Below, piece by piece: positions 7,320 to 27,624 of a stretch of DNA of 64,000 bases (its first letter is position 1; each line of letters starts with the position of its first letter). Origin of the DNA: Acidimicrobiales bacterium. GTDB lineage: Bacteria; Actinomycetota; Acidimicrobiia; Acidimicrobiales; Iamiaceae. The translations under genes and the position numbers were made by a program. The DNA is taken from contig JAODBM010000114.1 in the NCBI GenBank assembly GCA_025463985.1, positions 45,643 to 109,642 on the forward strand, read 5' to 3'. Below the pieces are notes generated by a model that had not been told where the DNA came from, did no database searches, and was given only the letters and a program-made list of their open reading frames with translations.

Positions 7320-7363
7320 CTGCGCTCGTAGCTCAATTGGAGAGAGCATCTGACTACGGATCA
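7320..7363 (+). repeat. attL: 5' half of tRNA-Arg(ACG), left 44-bp direct repeat
   Basis: Identical to 27,313-27,356. It covers the acceptor 5' strand, the D-arm and the anticodon stem-loop (ending TACGGATCA), then diverges. It cannot make a tRNA alone. It marks the left junction of the element. Confidence 0.92.
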
Positions 7364-16517: not shown

Positions 16518-17196
16518 CGTGCTGTAACCCCCCTGATCTGACAGCGGTGCGCTGCCTGATCTTGCAACTGGCTGAGGCCGGTCATCCTTGCAGGTCCGCT
16601 GGTCGAGGTGTCTTCGAAGGACGCCACCACATCGCCCTCGGTTGTGCTGGCGCCTCGGGTCGGGGCCATGCAGGCGAGGCGCGAGAGATCAGGGGCGTAG
16701 GTCGGGTGGGGTGAAGGTCCCAGGAACTGCGTCGAACGCTCCATCGAGGTTGGTAGTTGGGTGTGCGATTACCTGGCTGAACGCAGCTCGCATGGTCAAC
16801 AGACGTGGGCTTCACCCAGGACCTCCCAGAGACACTCAGAGATGCTCGTCTGTCCCTCGCCTAGCGGCGACTCGATCGGAACTAGCGGCTTGCCGACGCT
16901 GTGACCAGAGCCTGTCCCCACCGATCCCGGCGGCAAGACCCGGCTGGGCTCGAGCTCTGCCTCGATCGCAGCAGCGGCTTCCTCCCACTGCCCGCAGACC
17001 GCCGACCGCCGGATGATGGGCTCTCGACCAGCTAACGGAGGACGAGATGACCACGATCGTGTCCGACCGAACGCGGACGTGCGTGTCACGCAAAAGCGAG
17101 GGCGGTCCCTGCACGGCTAGCGTTTCGCCGGCGGCAAGTCAGGTTTCAACTGTTCCGAACACATGCGAACGCACGAGGTGCGTCAGAGAGGGATTT
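16518..17196. other. Gene-free spacer between the McrBC locus and the AAA operon
   Basis: About 680 bases between divergent genes. The short ORFs here are Arg/Pro-rich and without RBS. One minus-strand ORF (16,796-17,089) has a more protein-like C-terminal half (GKPLVPIESPLGEGQ) and might be a gene remnant, but I cannot assign it. Promoters for mcrB and the AAA operon should lie here. Confidence 0.4.
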
Positions 17197-18456
17197 ATGA
17201 GGCTCACCGGCCTGACTGTGGAGAACTGGAAGTCCTTCCGAGAGCCATCCCACTTGGAGCTCAGGCCACTGACCATTCTTCTGGGCCGCAACAATGCCGG
17301 CAAGAGTGCTCTGACGAGGCTTCCCCTTCTTCTTGCCGCTGGGTTCGGCGGACAAGTTGGACCGCCACTTCCCTTTGATCTCTCACAAGCCGACGTCGGG
17401 CGGATCCTTCCCGATGTAATCTATAAACGCCTCGCTCACGGAAGTGTCACCCTCGCAGCGGATTTGCAGACCCAGGCGAGTGATTCTCTCAGGGTGACCT
17501 TCCGGGTCCAGAATATTGATGAACTAAAGCTGCAGCTGCTGACAGAATGGTCGGTCAGCAAGAACGGCGACAAGGTCGCAGAGCTATTGTGGATTGGTAG
17601 CGATCCTCGTGCCTCGATCCAACCATATCGAGACAGCGTTAGTGACGTCGATATCCTTCTTGCCTTTGATGGGTTGGTACCCCGGCCCGATCAAGACAGC
17701 GAACTCACTGAAGTATTCACCAGCGTCTTGTCCGACCTTTCTGAGAAGCTGTTTGTCACTTACCTCGGACCGTTTAGAGAACAACCGAAGCGGAGCTATG
17801 AGTATCCGGGAACCGATCCAGACCACGTAGGTACGCACGGAGCGGGAGTCGCTGGGATCCTTGGCTCCGATGCACTCCGACGACAGGGTCGCCTTGTTGG
17901 CCAGGTCGCAGACGGCATGGAGGATCTGATTGGCCCATGGCGTCTTGCTGTCGAGCCATCGGGAGATGCTTTCAGGTTGGAACTCGTGTCGACTTCAGAC
18001 GCCGCGCTGCGGATAAACCTGGTTGATGTCGGGACCGGGGTGTCTCAGGTCATGCCGATCGTGGTGCAACGTGTCATGGATCGCAACCAGGAGGATCATG
18101 ATTTCCTTGAGGTCGTCGAACAGCCAGAGCTACACCTTCACCCTCGGGCGCACCTGCCGCTTGCTGATCTCTACATAACGGGGGCTCAGCGCACGGGTGC
18201 ACAGTTCGTTGTGGAAACCCACTCAGAAAACTTCGTGCTTCGAGTTAGGCGCCGCATTGCCGAGGGGTTGTTCGATCCAGATCTACTAGCGCTCTACTAC
18301 ATCGAGCACGACGGACAGGAAGCGACTGTTCGAAGGATCGAAATAGGCCCACTCGGGGATGTGGACTATTGGCCCTCGGGTGTCTTCTCCGAAGACTATG
18401 AGGAGACACGCCACTTGGCGGAGGCGCAGTTGGCCCGGGATCCAGATGCTGGTTGA
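17197..18456 (+). CDS. AAA/ABC-type ATPase with DUF3696 C-terminus
   Basis: A protein of about 419 residues. MRLTGLTVENWKSFREP and Walker A GRNNAGKS (residues 30-37) show an SMC/OLD-like ATPase head. A signature-like NLVDVGTGVSQVMPIV precedes Walker B EVVEQPELHLHPRAH and FVVETHSENFVLRVRRRI. The closing VDYWPSGVFSEDYEET fits DUF3696. There is no TOPRIM domain in this chain; one is supplied by the next gene, which overlaps by 11 bases. ATG at 17197 has GAGAGGGA upstream. The split OLD-type or PARIS-type arrangement suggests a sensor-effector defence pair. Confidence 0.85.
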   Translation: MRLTGLTVENWKSFREPSHLELRPLTILLGRNNAGKSALTRLPLLLAAGFGGQVGPPLPFDLSQADVGRILPDVIYKRLAHGSVTLAADLQTQASDSLRVTFRVQNIDELKLQLLTEWSVSKNGDKVAELLWIGSDPRASIQPYRDSVSDVDILLAFDGLVPRPDQDSELTEVFTSVLSDLSEKLFVTYLGPFREQPKRSYEYPGTDPDHVGTHGAGVAGILGSDALRRQGRLVGQVADGMEDLIGPWRLAVEPSGDAFRLELVSTSDAALRINLVDVGTGVSQVMPIVVQRVMDRNQEDHDFLEVVEQPELHLHPRAHLPLADLYITGAQRTGAQFVVETHSENFVLRVRRRIAEGLFDPDLLALYYIEHDGQEATVRRIEIGPLGDVDYWPSGVFSEDYEETRHLAEAQLARDPDAG

Positions 18457-19390
18457 GGTTTCTGCGGATCTCCTAGGTGACCCGGATGGCCATGGATGCT
18501 GTGACGCGATGCTGCTGATGTGGACTCGGCGGAAGCACGAATGGGCACTGTCATCTCCGGCCGGGCTCGATCAACTCCTGAGCAGCAGCTGGTACGAGTC
18601 TGGCCTCACGGCCGACCGTAAAAAAACGGTTCGGGCGCTCGCGGAGCATGGGTTTCAGGCCCAGGCCGCTTACGGAGGTCCCCAGACCACCATAGGCTTA
18701 GTCGGTGGAGACGATGGCGCCCGCCAGATTGAGAGTCTGTTCCACCCAGCGGTTCTTGTCGTGGAAAACGCCGAATCCGACTCCACCTTCGTTCGGTCAA
18801 TCCTGCAGGCATACGACGAGCGAGCGCTCCTTGAGGCGATCGACAAGTCGTGGATTGTGTTTCGCCACAGTGGCGGGTCTGGCGGGGTTGTCGATCGAAT
18901 GTTGGCCGAGCTGCGAGTCGTCGGATACGCGGAGCGCCTTGCAGCGCTTCTCGACTCGGATAGTCGCTGGCCCGGTGAGGTGACGGTCAATCATAAGAAG
19001 GCACAACAGTTGGCGGACGAGGGTATGCGAGTGCACGTCCTCGCCAAGCGCGAGGTCGAGAACTACATTCCCAACCGAGCACTGGCGGTTCGGGTGAGTT
19101 GCCGGGATCTGATTCGGTGGCTCAAATTGCTCAGTCATGAGCAGCGTTCTTACTACGATATGAAGAAGGGATTTCCTGCCGCGGCCCCAGTCGATGAGGC
19201 CTACGTCTCGCTATGGGAGGATCTCGACGCAGGAGCTAGGACGCACCTCGAAGAAGGCCTCGGTGATAGCGTCCTCGGAGTGCTCCCGATTGCCATAGCC
19301 TCACTACGGCCCGCCGACTTCGATGGTCCCGACCTTAACGCCAGCGCGGAACTTCTCACCCTAATTGAGTTGTTGAAGAGCATGGTCTGA
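18446..19390 (+). CDS. TOPRIM-like nuclease candidate
   Basis: A protein of about 314 residues. Residues 105-112 read VVENAESD (acidic residue of a TOPRIM strand), HSGGSGG follows near 141, a DSD triad lies at 170-172 and REVENYI at 202-208. This spacing matches the DUF4435/OLD-type TOPRIM fold. An N-terminal extension of about 100 residues has no recognised domain. The ATG at 18446 overlaps the ATPase gene by 11 bases. The likely role is effector nuclease or primase-fold partner of the ATPase, by analogy with AriB in PARIS or the C-terminal half of GajA. The 5-base gap to the DUF262 gene implies one operon. Confidence 0.72.
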   Translation: MLVEVSADLLGDPDGHGCCDAMLLMWTRRKHEWALSSPAGLDQLLSSSWYESGLTADRKKTVRALAEHGFQAQAAYGGPQTTIGLVGGDDGARQIESLFHPAVLVVENAESDSTFVRSILQAYDERALLEAIDKSWIVFRHSGGSGGVVDRMLAELRVVGYAERLAALLDSDSRWPGEVTVNHKKAQQLADEGMRVHVLAKREVENYIPNRALAVRVSCRDLIRWLKLLSHEQRSYYDMKKGFPAAAPVDEAYVSLWEDLDAGARTHLEEGLGDSVLGVLPIAIASLRPADFDGPDLNASAELLTLIELLKSMV

Positions 19391-19395
19391 AATCT

Positions 19396-21042
19396 ATGTC
19401 TTCACCATTCGTAAAGCCAGATATTGCTCTGCTTCAAGACCTCATCGCCGAGGTTCAAGCCGGCGATCTGCGGGTGCCCCGGTTTCAGCGTCCATTTGTC
19501 TGGAGCCCTGCGAAGATGCTCGCTCTTTTCGACTCGATCGATAAGGGGTATCCGGTAGGAAGTCTGCTTCTGTGGGAGACACCCGCTCCTATTCAAAGCA
19601 TCGGAATGGTCGGGTGCGTACCGGTGGCGCCGAGTCCTTCGTCGTCCAAGACCTCCTACGTACTGGACGGGCATCAGCGTCTGTCGACTTTGTTCAGCTG
19701 TCTGTCGCCCGAAAGCTCATTGGACTCCGGGACGCGCGAATGGTGGTGGGAGATTTACTGCGACTTGAGCGTGCCAGAGGGGGATCGGACGAATCGGTTC
19801 CGTCATTGGCGTAGCGCCGTTCCGCCGCCAGCGTCGTACATGTCGCTTCGTCACGTGCTCAGGACCATGGACTTCCTTGGGTTCGCCCGCAGGTTAGAAG
19901 CACAGTCGGTGAAGCGCAGCGACGTCGATGCCTTCGTCGCCACAGCGGAGGTCATCGCCCAACGGATCAAGTCATACCGATTTGCGGTAGTTCGCATCGT
20001 CGGGGGAACCCTCTCCGAGGCGGTCGAGATCTTCTCGCGCTTGAACAGCAGCGGGCAGTCGATGACGGCTGACCAGATGGTGTCGGCGCTCACCTTCTCA
20101 ATGGACGGCCCTTCGCTGGCAGATGGGATCGACCAGGTTCTGGAGGACGTGGCCCGCATTGGCTTCGGCCAGTTGCCTCGCCCGCCGGTGTTCCGCGCAG
20201 CGCTCGCTGTCAGTGGGGAGAGGGACATCCAGGACGCACGGTGGGAAACCATCGCCCAGAGGCTCGGGGGACGAATAGGGGAGGTGGTCGAATCCACTTC
20301 AGATGCAGTTGCTCAAGCGGTCGAGTTTCTGCAGACCGAGGTTGGTGTTCCGCTGGCGCGTCTCATTCCCTACGGCCTTCAAACCACCTTGCTCGCCGCC
20401 TATTTTCACCATGCCGCCCCGGAGCAGTCCGATGAAAACTTGAGCGTGCTCCGGACGTGGTTTTGGGCTACCTCGTGGTCGGGTTGGTTCGCAGGCGCAA
20501 ACACCACCCAGGTGAAAGAGGACCTCGAGGCGATGGTGGCTTTCGCGTCCGGCAGCGGAACACCGACAGGTCTGGCGGCTGCACCACAAGGTTTCCCGGA
20601 GAGCTTCGACCTCCGATCTGCTCGAGTCCGCACGCTCCTGATCTGGTTCCTGCGAGATCGGGTGCTACTCGACCCGAGTGGTAACGAGTTCGATGCTCGG
20701 GGGTACATCGCCGCTCTCGACACCGACGCGTTCAGACAGGTGATCCGGGACCCGAGAGCTGCGCGGTCGCATCCCGCTAATCGGGTGGTGCTCCCTACGG
20801 ATCGGGGGGTTTCAGTTCGCGCAGCTCTCATCGCTCTCGCACCCGAGAACGTCGAAGCCGTTTGCGAGTCACACCTGATCCCATTGGAAGCTCTCGACCG
20901 GCTTCGTCAGGGCAACAACGAGGATTTCGTACGGCTGCGTACCGACCGTCTGGCCGCGTCGGAGCGCTCGTTCATGACAGAGGTTGGCGTGGTCGCTGAA
21001 TCGACGTTGTCCACGGCGGAAGACCTGTTCGACTCGGACTGA
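19396..21042 (+). CDS. DUF262 protein (GmrS/ParB-like)
   Basis: A protein of 548 residues. VPRFQRPFVWSPAKMLALFDSI and YVLDGHQRLSTLFS are the DUF262 signature; in the GmrSD enzymes this ParB-like fold hydrolyses nucleotides. IFSRLNSSGQSMTADQMVSA is the second conserved block. Near the C-terminus CESHLIPLEALDRL and FVRLRTDRLA resemble the His-containing element of DUF1524-type HNH domains, but the full motif is not clear, so nuclease activity is uncertain. ATG at 19396 begins five bases after the TOPRIM gene. Third member of the operon. Confidence 0.85.
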   Translation: MSSPFVKPDIALLQDLIAEVQAGDLRVPRFQRPFVWSPAKMLALFDSIDKGYPVGSLLLWETPAPIQSIGMVGCVPVAPSPSSSKTSYVLDGHQRLSTLFSCLSPESSLDSGTREWWWEIYCDLSVPEGDRTNRFRHWRSAVPPPASYMSLRHVLRTMDFLGFARRLEAQSVKRSDVDAFVATAEVIAQRIKSYRFAVVRIVGGTLSEAVEIFSRLNSSGQSMTADQMVSALTFSMDGPSLADGIDQVLEDVARIGFGQLPRPPVFRAALAVSGERDIQDARWETIAQRLGGRIGEVVESTSDAVAQAVEFLQTEVGVPLARLIPYGLQTTLLAAYFHHAAPEQSDENLSVLRTWFWATSWSGWFAGANTTQVKEDLEAMVAFASGSGTPTGLAAAPQGFPESFDLRSARVRTLLIWFLRDRVLLDPSGNEFDARGYIAALDTDAFRQVIRDPRAARSHPANRVVLPTDRGVSVRAALIALAPENVEAVCESHLIPLEALDRLRQGNNEDFVRLRTDRLAASERSFMTEVGVVAESTLSTAEDLFDSD

Positions 21043-21098: not shown

Positions 21099-21776
21099 CT
21101 AGGTCGGCGGAACTCGTGATGTCCAGACGTTTCGTACTGTGGCCGGGTACCACTCCCGGCCCCCGTGCGCAGTGGGTACGGACTCGGCGTTCAGGCGACG
21201 GGCGATCGAGGACCAGCCGTTGCCCGCATCGTGCTCGGCAAGGATTCGGTTGGCGGTCTCGTCTGGCAACTGCCGAGGTCGGCCGAGCTTCACGCCCTGT
21301 GCGCGTTTTATCACGAGAGCGTCGCGAGTTCGCTGGCCGATGATGCGTCGCTCCCACTGGGCGGCAGATGCCATGACGCTTGCCATGAACTCGCCAGCGG
21401 GCGTGCTCAGGTCGATCCCAAGATCGAGGGCGACGAGATTCCAGCCGTTTGCCTGTGCATCCGACATGAGGCTGGCGAAGTCGAGCAACGATCGTGAGAG
21501 CCGGTCGAGCTTCGACACCATCAGGGTTCCGGCTCGTCCCGAGCGAACCTCCGCGAGCCCGTCTGCCAGGCCGTCCCGATTGCGAAGAGACTTGCCGGAT
21601 GCGCCTGCGTCAACGTGTACGCCCACGAGCGTCCACCCTCGGCGCTGGCACTCCGCCTCGATGGCTGCGCGCTGGGAATCGAGGCCGAGCCCGCTGTCGG
21701 CTTGCTCGGCCGTGGACACCCGTAGGTAGGCGACGACGGTGTCTGGACCCGCGCTCTGTGGTCGTTTGCGAGGCAT
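21099..21776 (-). CDS. Serine recombinase, resolvase/invertase type
   Basis: A protein of 225 residues. VVAYLRVSTAEQADSGLGLD holds the nucleophilic Ser and Arg. VHVDAGASGKSLRNRDGL, LMVSKLDRLSRSLLDFASLM and QWERRIIGQRTRDAL follow, and the C-terminus LGRPRQLP through ARRLNAESVPT is a Hin-type HTH DNA-binding domain. Size fits small resolvases, not large serine integrases. It faces away from the DUF262 gene end-to-end and has a palindrome directly upstream of its start. Confidence 0.9.
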   Translation of the reverse strand: MPRKRPQSAGPDTVVAYLRVSTAEQADSGLGLDSQRAAIEAECQRRGWTLVGVHVDAGASGKSLRNRDGLADGLAEVRSGRAGTLMVSKLDRLSRSLLDFASLMSDAQANGWNLVALDLGIDLSTPAGEFMASVMASAAQWERRIIGQRTRDALVIKRAQGVKLGRPRQLPDETANRILAEHDAGNGWSSIARRLNAESVPTAHGGREWYPATVRNVWTSRVPPT

Positions 21777-22087
21777 GTTCTTATAGTAAACCCTCGTTTG
21801 CTATAAGCACGCCGGCAGCGTTGGAAACTGAAACACTGTGAGTGTGCAAATTCTCGACTCACAGTAGGCGGACTGACTCGCTCCTCATTAGTGAGGCGGA
21901 GTTCGTGCCGAGGTGGGACGCACCTTTCGGGCCCCGGGGGGGTCAACGGCGCCTCTTCGCCCTGTTCGTACATATCAGAGACTCGCGAAAGCGCCGGACC
22001 TCCGGCGTACTGATCCGCTTCTCCACCAGCGGCTCCAGGCCGAACCCGTCTGACGACGCCCTGACGTCTTCCGATACCGTCGGGCGC
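21777..22087. other. Promoter region between the serine recombinase and a zinc-ribbon gene
   Basis: About 310 bases. The first 30 contain an AT-rich palindrome (listed separately). The remainder could be read as an N-terminal extension of the zinc-ribbon gene, but that stretch is low in protein character and has no RBS. Confidence 0.4.
21781..21806. promoter_or_regulatory. AT-rich palindrome upstream of the serine recombinase
   Basis: TTATAGTAAAC-CCTC-GTTTGCTATAA: two 11-base arms matching at 10 positions, starting 5 bases before the recombinase ATG. It is far more AT-rich than its surroundings. Candidate autoregulatory operator or recombination (res-type) half-site pair. Confidence 0.6.
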
Positions 22088-23130: not shown

Positions 23131-25503
23131 CTAGAAAACCGCCTCGATCACCTCGTCTGGCTCGCCTTGATTGGCTCGCTCGGATGCGGTCGCTACGGCA
23201 ATAACGGCAGTTTTCGGCTGATCGTCCCCCGGGTGAGGATCCGAATCCTGATGCTCGTTCTCACGCATGGGAGGAGAGGGGCTGAATTGCCGTAACCGCC
23301 GTTCGTCGCCCGGTGGAACGGTTGTTTCCGGCGAGGAGGGCGCTGCATCCGCATCGTTCGGACGGGGGCCTGCCGCTGGGACGGCAGTTACGGCAGTGTC
23401 CGGCGAGGAGATCGTGCCGACGGCGGTGTGGCCAGTCGGGTCCCCCGGACCCGGTGCAGCGGTGACTTCCGCTTTTGGGCCAGATGCGCTGGCAGGCAAG
23501 GAGGCCGTACTGGCTTCCGGTGGCCCCCACTCGTCGTCGGGCCGCAGTGTGATTCCTCGGATCACAACGGTACCGGCGCCGTTCTTTCCCACCCCCAGAC
23601 CCGCCGAGCGGACCACCTCGTAGAACTTGTGCTTACCGAGCAGGTTGCGGCGGTTGTCTGCGCACCACCTCTCGAATGCGCGCCACAGCTCGGTGCGGGG
23701 CACACCGCCGTGTGGGACGGGCTGTGTGGCTTCAGCGAGGAACAGCCGCACACGATCCGAAGCCTGAGCGAACTCGTCAGCGGCGCGACGAGTAGCGGGA
23801 GTCTCGAGGTATGCCCCGCGTGCCGCATGCGCGTGGTAGGCGCCCTGGAGCCGTACGAGGATGCCGGACAGCTCCTTCACCAACTGGTCCTCGATGGTCG
23901 GGTCCTCGTGACTGGCGAAGCTGTTCGGGAAGGGGAAAGGACGTATGCGGTTGAGGTACGCGGTCGTCACCTCGGACGCGGTGGGGATGGAGTTGGCGCT
24001 GAACACGAACAGGCATCGGGCATGGAAGATGAATGGCTGGCCATACTTGCGCTGGGCGCGCACCAGATCGTCACCGGTCAGGGCCTTGAAGGTCGACAGG
24101 TCCTCGAGATGAGCGGCCGAGAGGTCGGCTGCGCTGTTGAGGATGGAACCGGCAAGGTCTGCGGCAGCGAAGGTGTCTCGCGCGAGCTGGCCGAGAGTGA
24201 CCGCGGAGCGGTGAGGCCCTACAAGGTGTTCAAGAATGCGTAGGAACGTCGACTTACCCGACCGACTCGGACCATGGAGGAACAGCGCCCGCCTCTGTTG
24301 GCGGTTCGGCCGCGTCTCCAGCAGTTGAGAAGCTGACTCCAGGAGATCCTCGACGAGGCCATCGCCAACGACGGTGGGGAGCCAGCCGTCGAACGTCGGG
24401 CAGGTGGCGGACGGATCCCACGCCACCGGGAGCTGCACGAGCGAGAGGTGGGCGGGGTCGTGGTCGTGGAGCAGGCCGGTGAGTGGATCGAGCATGCCAT
24501 TGGCGACGTTTACGAGCCCTGGGTGGGGGTCGTCGCTCGCCACCCGACCCTCGGCCCGAAGCCGGCCCTGCGCGTACTCAGTCAGCGTCCGCGCGTGCTG
24601 GGGCCGATAGGCGTCGCCGAGTAGTCCGGTGAGGATTGCGCCCCAGTCGGCGGCATCGGTTCGGTCTGCCCGGTAGACGCCATCGGAGTAGGTGGCGACA
24701 CGGCCGGAGCGGTCGAGGCAGAGGTGATGCTCGGCCCGAATCGCGGCCAGGGCGGCGTCGGCCCGGATGCCGCCGTCGGTATCGAGCAGGGGCGACTTGT
24801 GTCGGATCGCCTTAGGTCGCCGGCCGAGCTTTTCGGCCATGTCGACCAGCCGGGCCAAGACGTTGGCGCGGTCGACCTGCTCGGCATTGGCGAGGTAGTC
24901 GTCAAGGCCGATCTTGGGCCCGGCGGGCAGCGCGACGAACTTGACGGTCTTTGCACCCAGCACCTCGAGGTGGGTGCCAAGGCGAGCGCCCGCATCATGG
25001 ACGTCGGGGTTGGTTGCCACATCGGCGTCGAGGGCGATGACGACGGGCAAGCCGGCGATACCGAGCCGTCCGAGCTCGGGGTTTGCGAGCTTGTCGCGAG
25101 ACCAACCCCAGCAGCCGGCCATGCCGATCACGAGCACGTCCGATGGCGCGTAAGCGATGGCGGCAAGGGTCTGGCGGGTGCCCTCTACAATCAGCACCCA
25201 GCTGGCAGAGCCGATGCGGGCGCGCATGTCGGGAACGATGTTCAGTGGCGCCGGCCCGGCAGGGAAGACGTATTTTCGAAGTCGGCCCTTGGCGTCGGGC
25301 GTCGGGGAGTCGGGGCGGTACTGCGGCACGGGCGGACCGTCGAGCGGGCAGAGCTGGAACACGATTCCCGGTCCATCCCAACGGAATCCAGTAGGGAGCT
25401 CACAGGATGACATCACGCTGTAAGCGCCGGCACTTTCTGCCACGTTCTTTGGGATGGCAGTAGCGGCGAGGAAGTGGGCATGGTCCGAACTGAGACCATG
25501 CAT
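23131..25503 (-). CDS. Primase-helicase, D5/P4 type with DUF3854-like TOPRIM
   Basis: A protein of 790 residues that could start and unwind element replication. The N-terminal part has WVLIVEGTRQTLAAI and LPVVIALDADVATNPDVHDAG, a TOPRIM/DUF3854 primase fold. Next come a D5_N-like region (VANGMLDPLTGLLHDHDPAHLSLVQLPVAW) and an SF3 helicase with Walker A GPSRSGKST near residue 415 and LFVFSANSIPTAS. The last 120 residues are a disordered Pro/Ala/Asp tail. It is the only replication gene in the element, so it may support a circular replicative form after excision. Confidence 0.85.
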   Translation of the reverse strand: MHGLSSDHAHFLAATAIPKNVAESAGAYSVMSSCELPTGFRWDGPGIVFQLCPLDGPPVPQYRPDSPTPDAKGRLRKYVFPAGPAPLNIVPDMRARIGSASWVLIVEGTRQTLAAIAYAPSDVLVIGMAGCWGWSRDKLANPELGRLGIAGLPVVIALDADVATNPDVHDAGARLGTHLEVLGAKTVKFVALPAGPKIGLDDYLANAEQVDRANVLARLVDMAEKLGRRPKAIRHKSPLLDTDGGIRADAALAAIRAEHHLCLDRSGRVATYSDGVYRADRTDAADWGAILTGLLGDAYRPQHARTLTEYAQGRLRAEGRVASDDPHPGLVNVANGMLDPLTGLLHDHDPAHLSLVQLPVAWDPSATCPTFDGWLPTVVGDGLVEDLLESASQLLETRPNRQQRRALFLHGPSRSGKSTFLRILEHLVGPHRSAVTLGQLARDTFAAADLAGSILNSAADLSAAHLEDLSTFKALTGDDLVRAQRKYGQPFIFHARCLFVFSANSIPTASEVTTAYLNRIRPFPFPNSFASHEDPTIEDQLVKELSGILVRLQGAYHAHAARGAYLETPATRRAADEFAQASDRVRLFLAEATQPVPHGGVPRTELWRAFERWCADNRRNLLGKHKFYEVVRSAGLGVGKNGAGTVVIRGITLRPDDEWGPPEASTASLPASASGPKAEVTAAPGPGDPTGHTAVGTISSPDTAVTAVPAAGPRPNDADAAPSSPETTVPPGDERRLRQFSPSPPMRENEHQDSDPHPGDDQPKTAVIAVATASERANQGEPDEVIEAVF

Positions 25504-26288: not shown

Positions 26289-27230
26289 CTATAACCGGTC
26301 GCCGGGCGATAGGCGCCGGTGAGCCTCGCGTGCCCGTTGTGCGGCGGCTGACGATGCGTAGCGGGCCAGCATGTCCCGGCTGGTCCACCCGGCGACCTGC
26401 ATCAGGTCGCCCTCGTTGCCGCCCTCGGCGAGCCAGGTGTGGGCCATCGTGTGACGGAACCGGTGCGGGTGTACGTCGGCCACCTTCGCCTCGAGGCCTC
26501 GGCGTCGCATCATCTGGGAGATGCCCGACGGGGTCATGGCCCCTCGGTTGCCGATCCAGAGCGACGGCGAGTCGGCATGGATGTGGTTCGCCCGACGCCG
26601 GATGTAGCGGTCGAGCTCCTTGACGGCCTTCGATCCGATCCTCAGGTGGCCCATGCGCCGTCCCTTGCGGGTCACGGTGATGAGGTTGACGTCGAGATCG
26701 AGGTCGGACAGCTCGGGGGCGTCAGGGTGGTGCCTCAGGCCGGCGATCTCCGACACCCGAGCGCCGGTGTCGATGAACAACCGGAACAGCGCCCTGTCTC
26801 TCAGGTCATCGAACGACTTGCCGGCACAGGTTCCGAGCAGGCGCCGCATCTCGTCCTCGCTGAAGATCGGGACCGGCTGCTCGGGAACCTTGGGTGGGCG
26901 CATCTTCGCCATTGGCGAGGCGACGATCTCTCCCTCGTCGACCAGCCACCGGAAGAGCTGCTGCAACGAGCGAAACCGGTTGGCGGCGGTTGAGGCGGAG
27001 TGCTTGGTCAGCAGCTGCTCGAGGAAGCTCTCGATGTGCTCCCTGGCGATGCCGGTAGGAGAAGTGGGCATCCCGGCGGCGTTGAGGAAGGCGGCCAGCT
27101 GGGTCCCGGCCTCAACGTAGGACTGGATGGTCCTTGGGCTGAGGTTCGCCGCCCGGAGGTGGCGCTGCCAACTGGGGAGCAGTGATTCCACGTCCGGTAA
27201 GGTGCGGGGCGTCGACGTCCTCTCGGCCAT
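26289..27230 (-). CDS. int: Tyrosine integrase of the element
   Basis: A protein of 313 residues. The N-terminal core-binding domain ([38 protein letters not shown]) precedes the catalytic domain. Visible active-site residues are Arg in [12 protein letters not shown], Lys in [16 protein letters not shown], the His/Trp position GWTSRDM and the nucleophile Tyr in LARYASS. It has the size of XerC/D-like tRNA integrases. Start lies 85 bases from the tRNA-Arg, typical for int-att adjacency. Confidence 0.92.
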
Positions 27231-27312: not shown

Positions 27313-27356
27313 CTGCGCTCGTAGCTCAATTGGAGAGAGCATCTGACTACGGATCA
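27313..27356 (+). repeat. attR: right 44-bp direct repeat
   Basis: Perfect copy of 7,320-7,363. Here it continues into the tRNA 3' half, so it marks the right end of the element. The two copies diverge right after GGATCA. Confidence 0.92.
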
Positions 27357-27388
27357 GAAGGTTGGGGGTTCGAGTCCCTCCGAGCGCG
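27315..27388 (+). tRNA. tRNA-Arg (anticodon ACG), rebuilt at attR
   Basis: Acceptor arms GCGCTCG and CGAGCGC, D-arm GCTC/GAGC, anticodon stem TCTGA/TCAGA with loop CTACGGA (anticodon ACG) and T-arm GGGGG-TTCGAGT-CCCTC. The discriminator is G. Its first 42 bases come from the element, so the upstream promoter is also element DNA. The 236 bases after it hold no gene that I can see. Confidence 0.95.
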
Positions 27389-27624
27389 CTGAGTTCTTCC
27401 GGCGAATGCGCTGGTCATGGAGGTGCGCCATGGCCGCACCACTTTCTGGCAGGCAGTCAAGGATGTGGGGGAAGCACTGACCCGCCTGGGGCACGTGAGA
27501 GCGCGCTGACATGCAGCTCTGCACCCAGAACCTTCTGATGACTGAATCAGACGATTGGACTCGCCAACAGGGACGCTCGCGAGTCGGCTTCGCGTCGCGG
27601 GAACGGCGCGTCGAGCGCGTTCGG

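Follow-up and report, generated by a model that had tools for sequence, protein, structure and literature searches.

A palindromic site on the promoter of a small serine recombinase gene, the likely operator and crossover site of its neighbouring recombinase

Results and Discussion

The locus and its host element

The window (the whole analysed stretch of DNA, 64,000 nucleotides) contains a 20-kb integrative element (window positions 7320-27356), which is inserted in tRNA-Arg(ACG). The following features of the element are considered here:

7320..7363, no strand assigned: left attachment repeat, 44 bp, identical to the right repeat
21099..21776, minus strand: small serine recombinase, 225 aa, with PF00239 (1e-36) and the N-terminal half of PF07508
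21114..21263, minus strand: C-terminal DNA-binding domain of the recombinase, residues 172-221 (AlphaFold2 model and co-variation)
23131..25503, minus strand: putative D5-type primase-helicase (DUF5906, D5_N, DUF3854)
26289..27230, minus strand: tyrosine integrase (PF00589)
27313..27356, no strand assigned: right attachment repeat, 44 bp, within tRNA-Arg(ACG) (27315-27389)

As it encodes a primase-helicase, the element is probably capable of replication in its circular form. The genes beside the recombinase (17047-21042) match PDC-M55A/B/C, the three parts of the candidate defence system PDC-M55, and the element reads as a mobile defence island. A gene for an McrB-like AAA ATPase and apparent methyltransferase genes are also present. 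No transposase was found among the neighbouring proteins scanned with Pfam (part of the ORFs), and the ends of the element are the 44-bp tRNA repeats, where a Tn3-family transposon would have 38-bp IRs.

The recombinase shows the typical organization of the small serine recombinases, i.e. a PF00239 domain with the Ser nucleophile and the Arg cluster, followed by a long helix E and a C-terminal HTH. Its catalytic residues (R19, S21, R67, R92, R95, E142, R143) are present. In the AlphaFold2 model (mean pLDDT 88) helix E spans residues 126-159 and the HTH helices span residues 172-183, 188-197 and 211-221, the last of these (PATVRNVWTSR) being the predicted recognition helix. The PF07508 match covers only positions 6-52 of the profile. 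TP901-1 was the second-best PDB match for the catalytic domain, and DNA invertases were also among the PDB matches.

The dyad upstream of the recombinase gene

The intergenic features are as follows:

21780..21807, minus strand: 12-4-12 dyad, the proposed recombinase binding/crossover site and operator (from shuffles and same-position dyads in homologues)
21780..21791, no strand assigned: gene-proximal arm CTTATAGTAAAC, read from the sequence
21792-21795: spacer CCTC, in the window reading
21793..21794, minus strand: non-palindromic dinucleotide at the centre, AG in coding-strand reading, the presumed 2-bp crossover overlap, from comparison
21796..21807, no strand assigned: gene-distal arm GTTTGCTATAAG, read from the sequence

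A preliminary description of this DNA had noted an AT-rich palindrome with 10/11 matches directly before the recombinase ATG, and had proposed it as a binding site of the recombinase, used for crossover or autorepression. The palindrome is real and its arms are slightly longer than claimed. It reads CTTATAGTAAAC-CCTC-GTTTGCTATAAG in the window (21780-21807) and CTTATAGCAAAC GAGG GTTTACTATAAG on the minus (coding) strand; the arms pair at 11/12 positions and are separated by a 4-bp spacer, which gives a total of 28 bp and an even-numbered centre. The recombinase ATG is placed at 21776 on the minus strand, and the nearer arm ends 3 bp upstream of it. Shuffling the upstream 100 bp with dinucleotides preserved gave an equally good dyad in none of 300 trials (p 0.003).

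Another dyad, ACTGTGAGT-N13-ACTCACAGT, was detected at window positions 21835-21865, 56.5 bp from the centre of the first (p 0.010 in shuffles). It was not seen in relatives and is perhaps the operator of another gene. We considered it as a res II subsite and dropped this assignment, because its arms are unrelated to those of the first dyad and are not conserved.

Recurrence of the dyad in homologues

Homologous loci (48) were collected from genome contigs, whole genomes, plasmids, phages and viral contigs; their recombinases are mostly 40-67% identical to that of the window. In each locus, without any selection, the 100-bp stretch that precedes the conserved N-terminus was compared with its dinucleotide shuffles. 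An upstream dyad with p<=0.05 was found in 21/48 loci (combined Fisher p 8e-17), whereas the 100 bp that adjoin the dyads on their upstream side, used as a control, gave p 0.69. Rule-based extraction yielded at least 10 of 12 pairs in 18/48 loci, compared with 2/48 in the control region. A clear dyad was absent in about a third of the homologues. Promoters are AT-rich and 12-bp near-repeats do occur in them, which is what a chance palindrome would require; this explanation was rejected on the basis of the shuffles, the rule-based site set and the recurrence of the dyad with a different sequence in homologues, and its remaining probability is negligible.

The arm sequences vary from locus to locus, e.g. 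ATAGCAAATG ac CATTTGCTAT in L003, CATACACTAAA ggtccg TTTAGTGTATG in L004, and a perfect 17-bp arm in L015. The distance between the centre and the start codon is mostly 20-23 bp. The dyad accompanies the recombinase gene across differing neighbourhoods, plasmids, phage-like contigs and phyla, and some of the homologues are located on circular plasmids of 5-9 kb. Lack of conservation in related elements had been named in the preliminary description as evidence against its reading; in fact, relatives do not share the sequence, yet they conserve a dyad, its placement and its core.

The Nocardia plasmid pC1 (L042, positions 1-40, at the start point of the record) has a promoter with two direct half-sites, TTGCTATACG and TTTGCTATACGG, and no dyad. 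Its half-site is that of the window, and both recombinases carry a WYPATVR helix.

A predicted leaderless promoter under the dyad

Leaderless genes of high-GC bacteria have been described as marked by TANNNT some 12 bp before the start codon (PMC3160421). In the window this mark is provided by the following box:

21783..21788, minus strand: TACTAT, the predicted -10 box (TANNNT rule), located within the gene-proximal arm at -12 to -7 relative to the ATG

By this predicted -10 box (TACTAT at -12..-7) the window recombinase gene is classed as leaderless. Of 25 dyad loci, 14 have TANNNT precisely at -12 to -7 relative to the start (p 2.6e-33 compared with the local background, in which 0.0016 is expected per position), and in some other loci it is shifted by one base or fits an alternative start. 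Since TANNNT at this position marks leaderless genes, the dyad covers the promoter, and the site is predicted to sit on a leaderless promoter. The autorepression proposed earlier agrees well with this arrangement, in which the dyad overlies the leaderless -10 box; it is likely that the recombinase represses its own gene.

In one homologue (L005) the leaderless -10 box is directed at a short ORF upstream of the recombinase, six codons long (MERVQR) and out of frame; its stop codon and the start codon of the recombinase overlap (TGATG). This ORF is possibly a leader peptide with coupled translation.

Co-variation of the arms with the protein domains

Pairwise differences between sites (positions 8-13, counted from the centre, for the outer half-site and 3-6 for the inner one) were compared with those between protein domains in partial Mantel tests. 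For the curated sites (n=25), outer half-site distance correlated with HTH distance (raw r 0.62; partial r 0.58 given the N-terminal domain, p 1e-4), and the rule-chosen sites gave a partial Mantel r of 0.48 (p 0.0002). No correlation was seen between the outer arms and the N-terminal catalytic domain when the HTH was accounted for (0.03/-0.05). The inner half-site of the rule-chosen sites correlated with the helix-E/linker arm of the protein, residues 148-171 (partial 0.30, p 0.006). The crossed comparisons in the same set were empty (inner arms and HTH, 0.02; outer arms and protein arm, -0.01), i.e. there was a double dissociation. In sliding windows the outer-arm signal was located at residues 198-216 and the inner-arm signal at residues 150-171.

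The HTH codons lie about 0.5 kb from the dyad, farther than the N-terminal codons. Genetic linkage cannot explain the pattern, because hitch-hiking predicts the opposite. Resolvases contact their sites via helix E and the linker in the central minor groove, and via the HTH at the outer motifs (PMC9943657), and the outer/inner split seen here is, by analogy, that expected of a resolvase at its site I. Arm changes that track the enzyme's own DNA-binding domain are stronger evidence than simple conservation, and the comparison with relatives argues that site and enzyme evolved together.

The earlier suggestion that the dyad is the recombinase's own binding site is thus borne out by co-variation of its arms with the recombinase's own DNA-binding domain, and we have little doubt that the recombinase binds it. 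That the dyad should instead serve another regulator and not be bound by the recombinase is very improbable: it does overlap a promoter, and the dyad at 21835-21865 may be an operator of that kind, but such a regulator would account neither for the co-variation with the HTH and arm of the recombinase nor for a dyad that follows the recombinase gene through such different surroundings.

The core of the site and a catalytically dead lineage

The 26 curated sites share the centre G-NN-C, with G at -2 in 23/26 and C at +2 in 25/26, and all of them, belonging to active enzymes, have even centres. The central dinucleotide is palindromic in 0/26 of the curated sites and AC/GT in 16/26; as the curated centres were set by eye where scores were close, the figure for the rule-based set is safer (palindromic 2/28, AC/GT 14/28, p 1.6e-6). 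The window core is AG with G/G at +-2, and differs from the common G-AC-C.

A dead lineage of the recombinase was identified in one actinobacterial family (12 of 42 genomes of family f28; L032, L036, L064-L075). In these proteins the catalytic Ser is replaced by A/G and R71 by Y, and E124/R125 are lost. The dyad is nevertheless kept by 9/12 members, with arms near TTTACAC...GTGTAAA. All nine of these dyads have odd-numbered centres and no shared core. In 8/9 cases the dyad-bearing gene is divergent to one conserved gene, with the dyad in between; in L067, the member tested, the conserved gene encodes myo-inositol-1-phosphate synthase (PF01658, 2e-37). The lineage represents a single evolutionary event and counts once. 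It appears to separate an operator role, which was kept, from a crossover role found in live enzymes only, and its protein is a probable domesticated regulator.

The even spacing and the asymmetric central dinucleotide, both missing in the dead lineage, also speak for the other use proposed in the preliminary description, and the dyad is probably the crossover site of the recombinase. It is unlikely that the dyad is an operator only, through which the recombinase represses its own promoter while crossover takes place elsewhere or has been lost. The dead lineage, which keeps the dyad beside the gene, indicates that such a site can persist for regulation alone, and neither accessory sites nor a second copy were detected; yet an operator would need neither of the two features that the sites of active enzymes retain and the dead lineage has lost, and the catalytic residues are conserved.

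Copy number and accessory sites

The search for further copies in the element and the host, suggested earlier, yielded none. No second copy was found within the window at <=3 mismatches (0 expected in shuffles), in the host's own assembly (4.19 Mb, 83% complete), in the homologous loci, in whole 5-8.5-kb plasmids or in two further genomes; thus, there is one copy per plasmid or genome tested. Accessory half-sites within 313 bp upstream were not found above chance (Fisher 0.998), although degenerate or host-factor sites could escape this search, and the scan of the next 100 bp revealed no conserved second dyad in homologues. The small serine resolvases of Tn3 and Sin need accessory sites for directionality (PMC9943657). 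A single site without accessory half-sites argues against both an invertible segment and a Tn3-like res of three subsites.

A role as an integration attachment site, or as one of the paired sites of an invertible segment, is quite improbable for the dyad. Some relatives are annotated as DNA invertases and a tyrosine integrase gene often follows the recombinase, which would suit such a role; against it stand the absence of a second copy from the replicons listed above and the ends of the element, which are the 44-bp tRNA repeats of the tyrosine integrase.

Comparison with known systems

In the Tn3/gamma-delta system the res site lies next to the resolvase gene, over its promoter, and a resolvase site placed in this way is a known principle from Tn3-type transposons. 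The present system shares this placement, the small serine recombinase, and a 28-bp 12-4-12 dyad with an even centre and a presumed 2-bp overlap; the reading of the outer arms by the HTH and of the inner arms by helix E/linker is likewise suggested by the co-variation. In contrast to Tn3/gamma-delta, subsites II and III were not detected and no transposase was found among the proteins scanned; the predicted promoter is leaderless, the family has a GC-containing asymmetric core (AC/GT, here AG), and the C-terminal domain resembles the start of PF07508, not the short resolvase HTH.

The Hin/Gin DNA invertases act on dyad sites with a non-palindromic central dinucleotide. The dyad described here is of the same form and the catalytic domains are similar (PDB matches), but there is no inverted partner site and the dyad lies in the recombinase's own promoter. 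With the large serine integrases (TP901-1, Bxb1) the enzyme shares the catalytic domain, part of PF07508, and simple sites with a 2-bp overlap, which is presumed here; it differs in size (225 aa compared with about 500, range ~450-600), in having no zinc-ribbon domain, and in its full symmetric site instead of an attP/attB pair. The Sin/beta resolvases are small serine recombinases of plasmids as well; each plasmid has one site region for them, and they resolve multimers, as may be the case here. The res site of Sin includes an accessory site II and an HU site (PMC9943657), neither of which was detected in the present loci. Searches of the open-access literature yielded no account of this architecture, or of repressors of such a type derived from recombinases. 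The novelty lies in the predicted leaderless promoter carrying one bare site, and in the dead lineage of probable regulators.

Proposed mode of action

The most comprehensive explanation, which we consider likely on sequence grounds, is that the neighbouring recombinase has its cognate site in the dyad, which serves as both its operator and its crossover site. A recombinase dimer would bind the outer arms through its paired C-terminal HTH domains, while its helix-E/linker arms would contact the AT-rich inner arms. The -10 box of the predicted leaderless promoter lies within the site, so that a bound dimer would shut off its own gene. Two directly repeated copies would be present, e.g., once the excised circular element has formed a dimer. 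The recombinase dimers bound to them would then synapse and cleave the central 2 bp, which would restore monomeric circles, and the non-palindromic dinucleotide would keep the joining polar. Against this explanation count the lack of detected accessory subsites, which the known small serine resolvases need, the divergent core of the window and the homologues without a clear dyad.

More broadly, there may be a widespread family of small serine recombinases in which a bare crossover dyad without accessory subsites is the operator of a leaderless promoter, so that expression and recombination are coupled within 28 bp, one lineage of which is now a dead transcription factor beside an inositol-phosphate synthase gene. 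This generalization is tentative, at slightly less than even odds in our estimate. As the site sits on the promoter of the gene, matched pairs can be found from sequence alone, and more than 20 recombinase/cognate-site pairs with diverged specificity were obtained in this way. They point to a recognition code (e.g. WYPATVR with GCTATA, and W[HY]ASTV with TGTAC) and constitute a set of compact recombination systems for testing. If no accessory sites are needed, the way in which directionality is imposed comes into question. In the dead lineage, a recombinase would have been domesticated into a regulator.

The least certain step is the resolution of circular multimers by the enzyme, for and against which we see about equal chances. 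Of the roles considered this one nevertheless fits best, and it agrees with the small circular plasmids and with an element that has its own primase-helicase.

A tyrosine integrase gene lies directly downstream of the recombinase gene, on the same strand, in 12/48 loci, in one of them (L007) as a fusion. Since the genes adjoin and are once fused, the recombinase and the integrase are probably used together. The fused gene (L007:1670-3952, Dietzia aurantiaca) encodes one serine recombinase-tyrosine integrase protein of 761 aa, with PF00239 and a weak PF00589 match.
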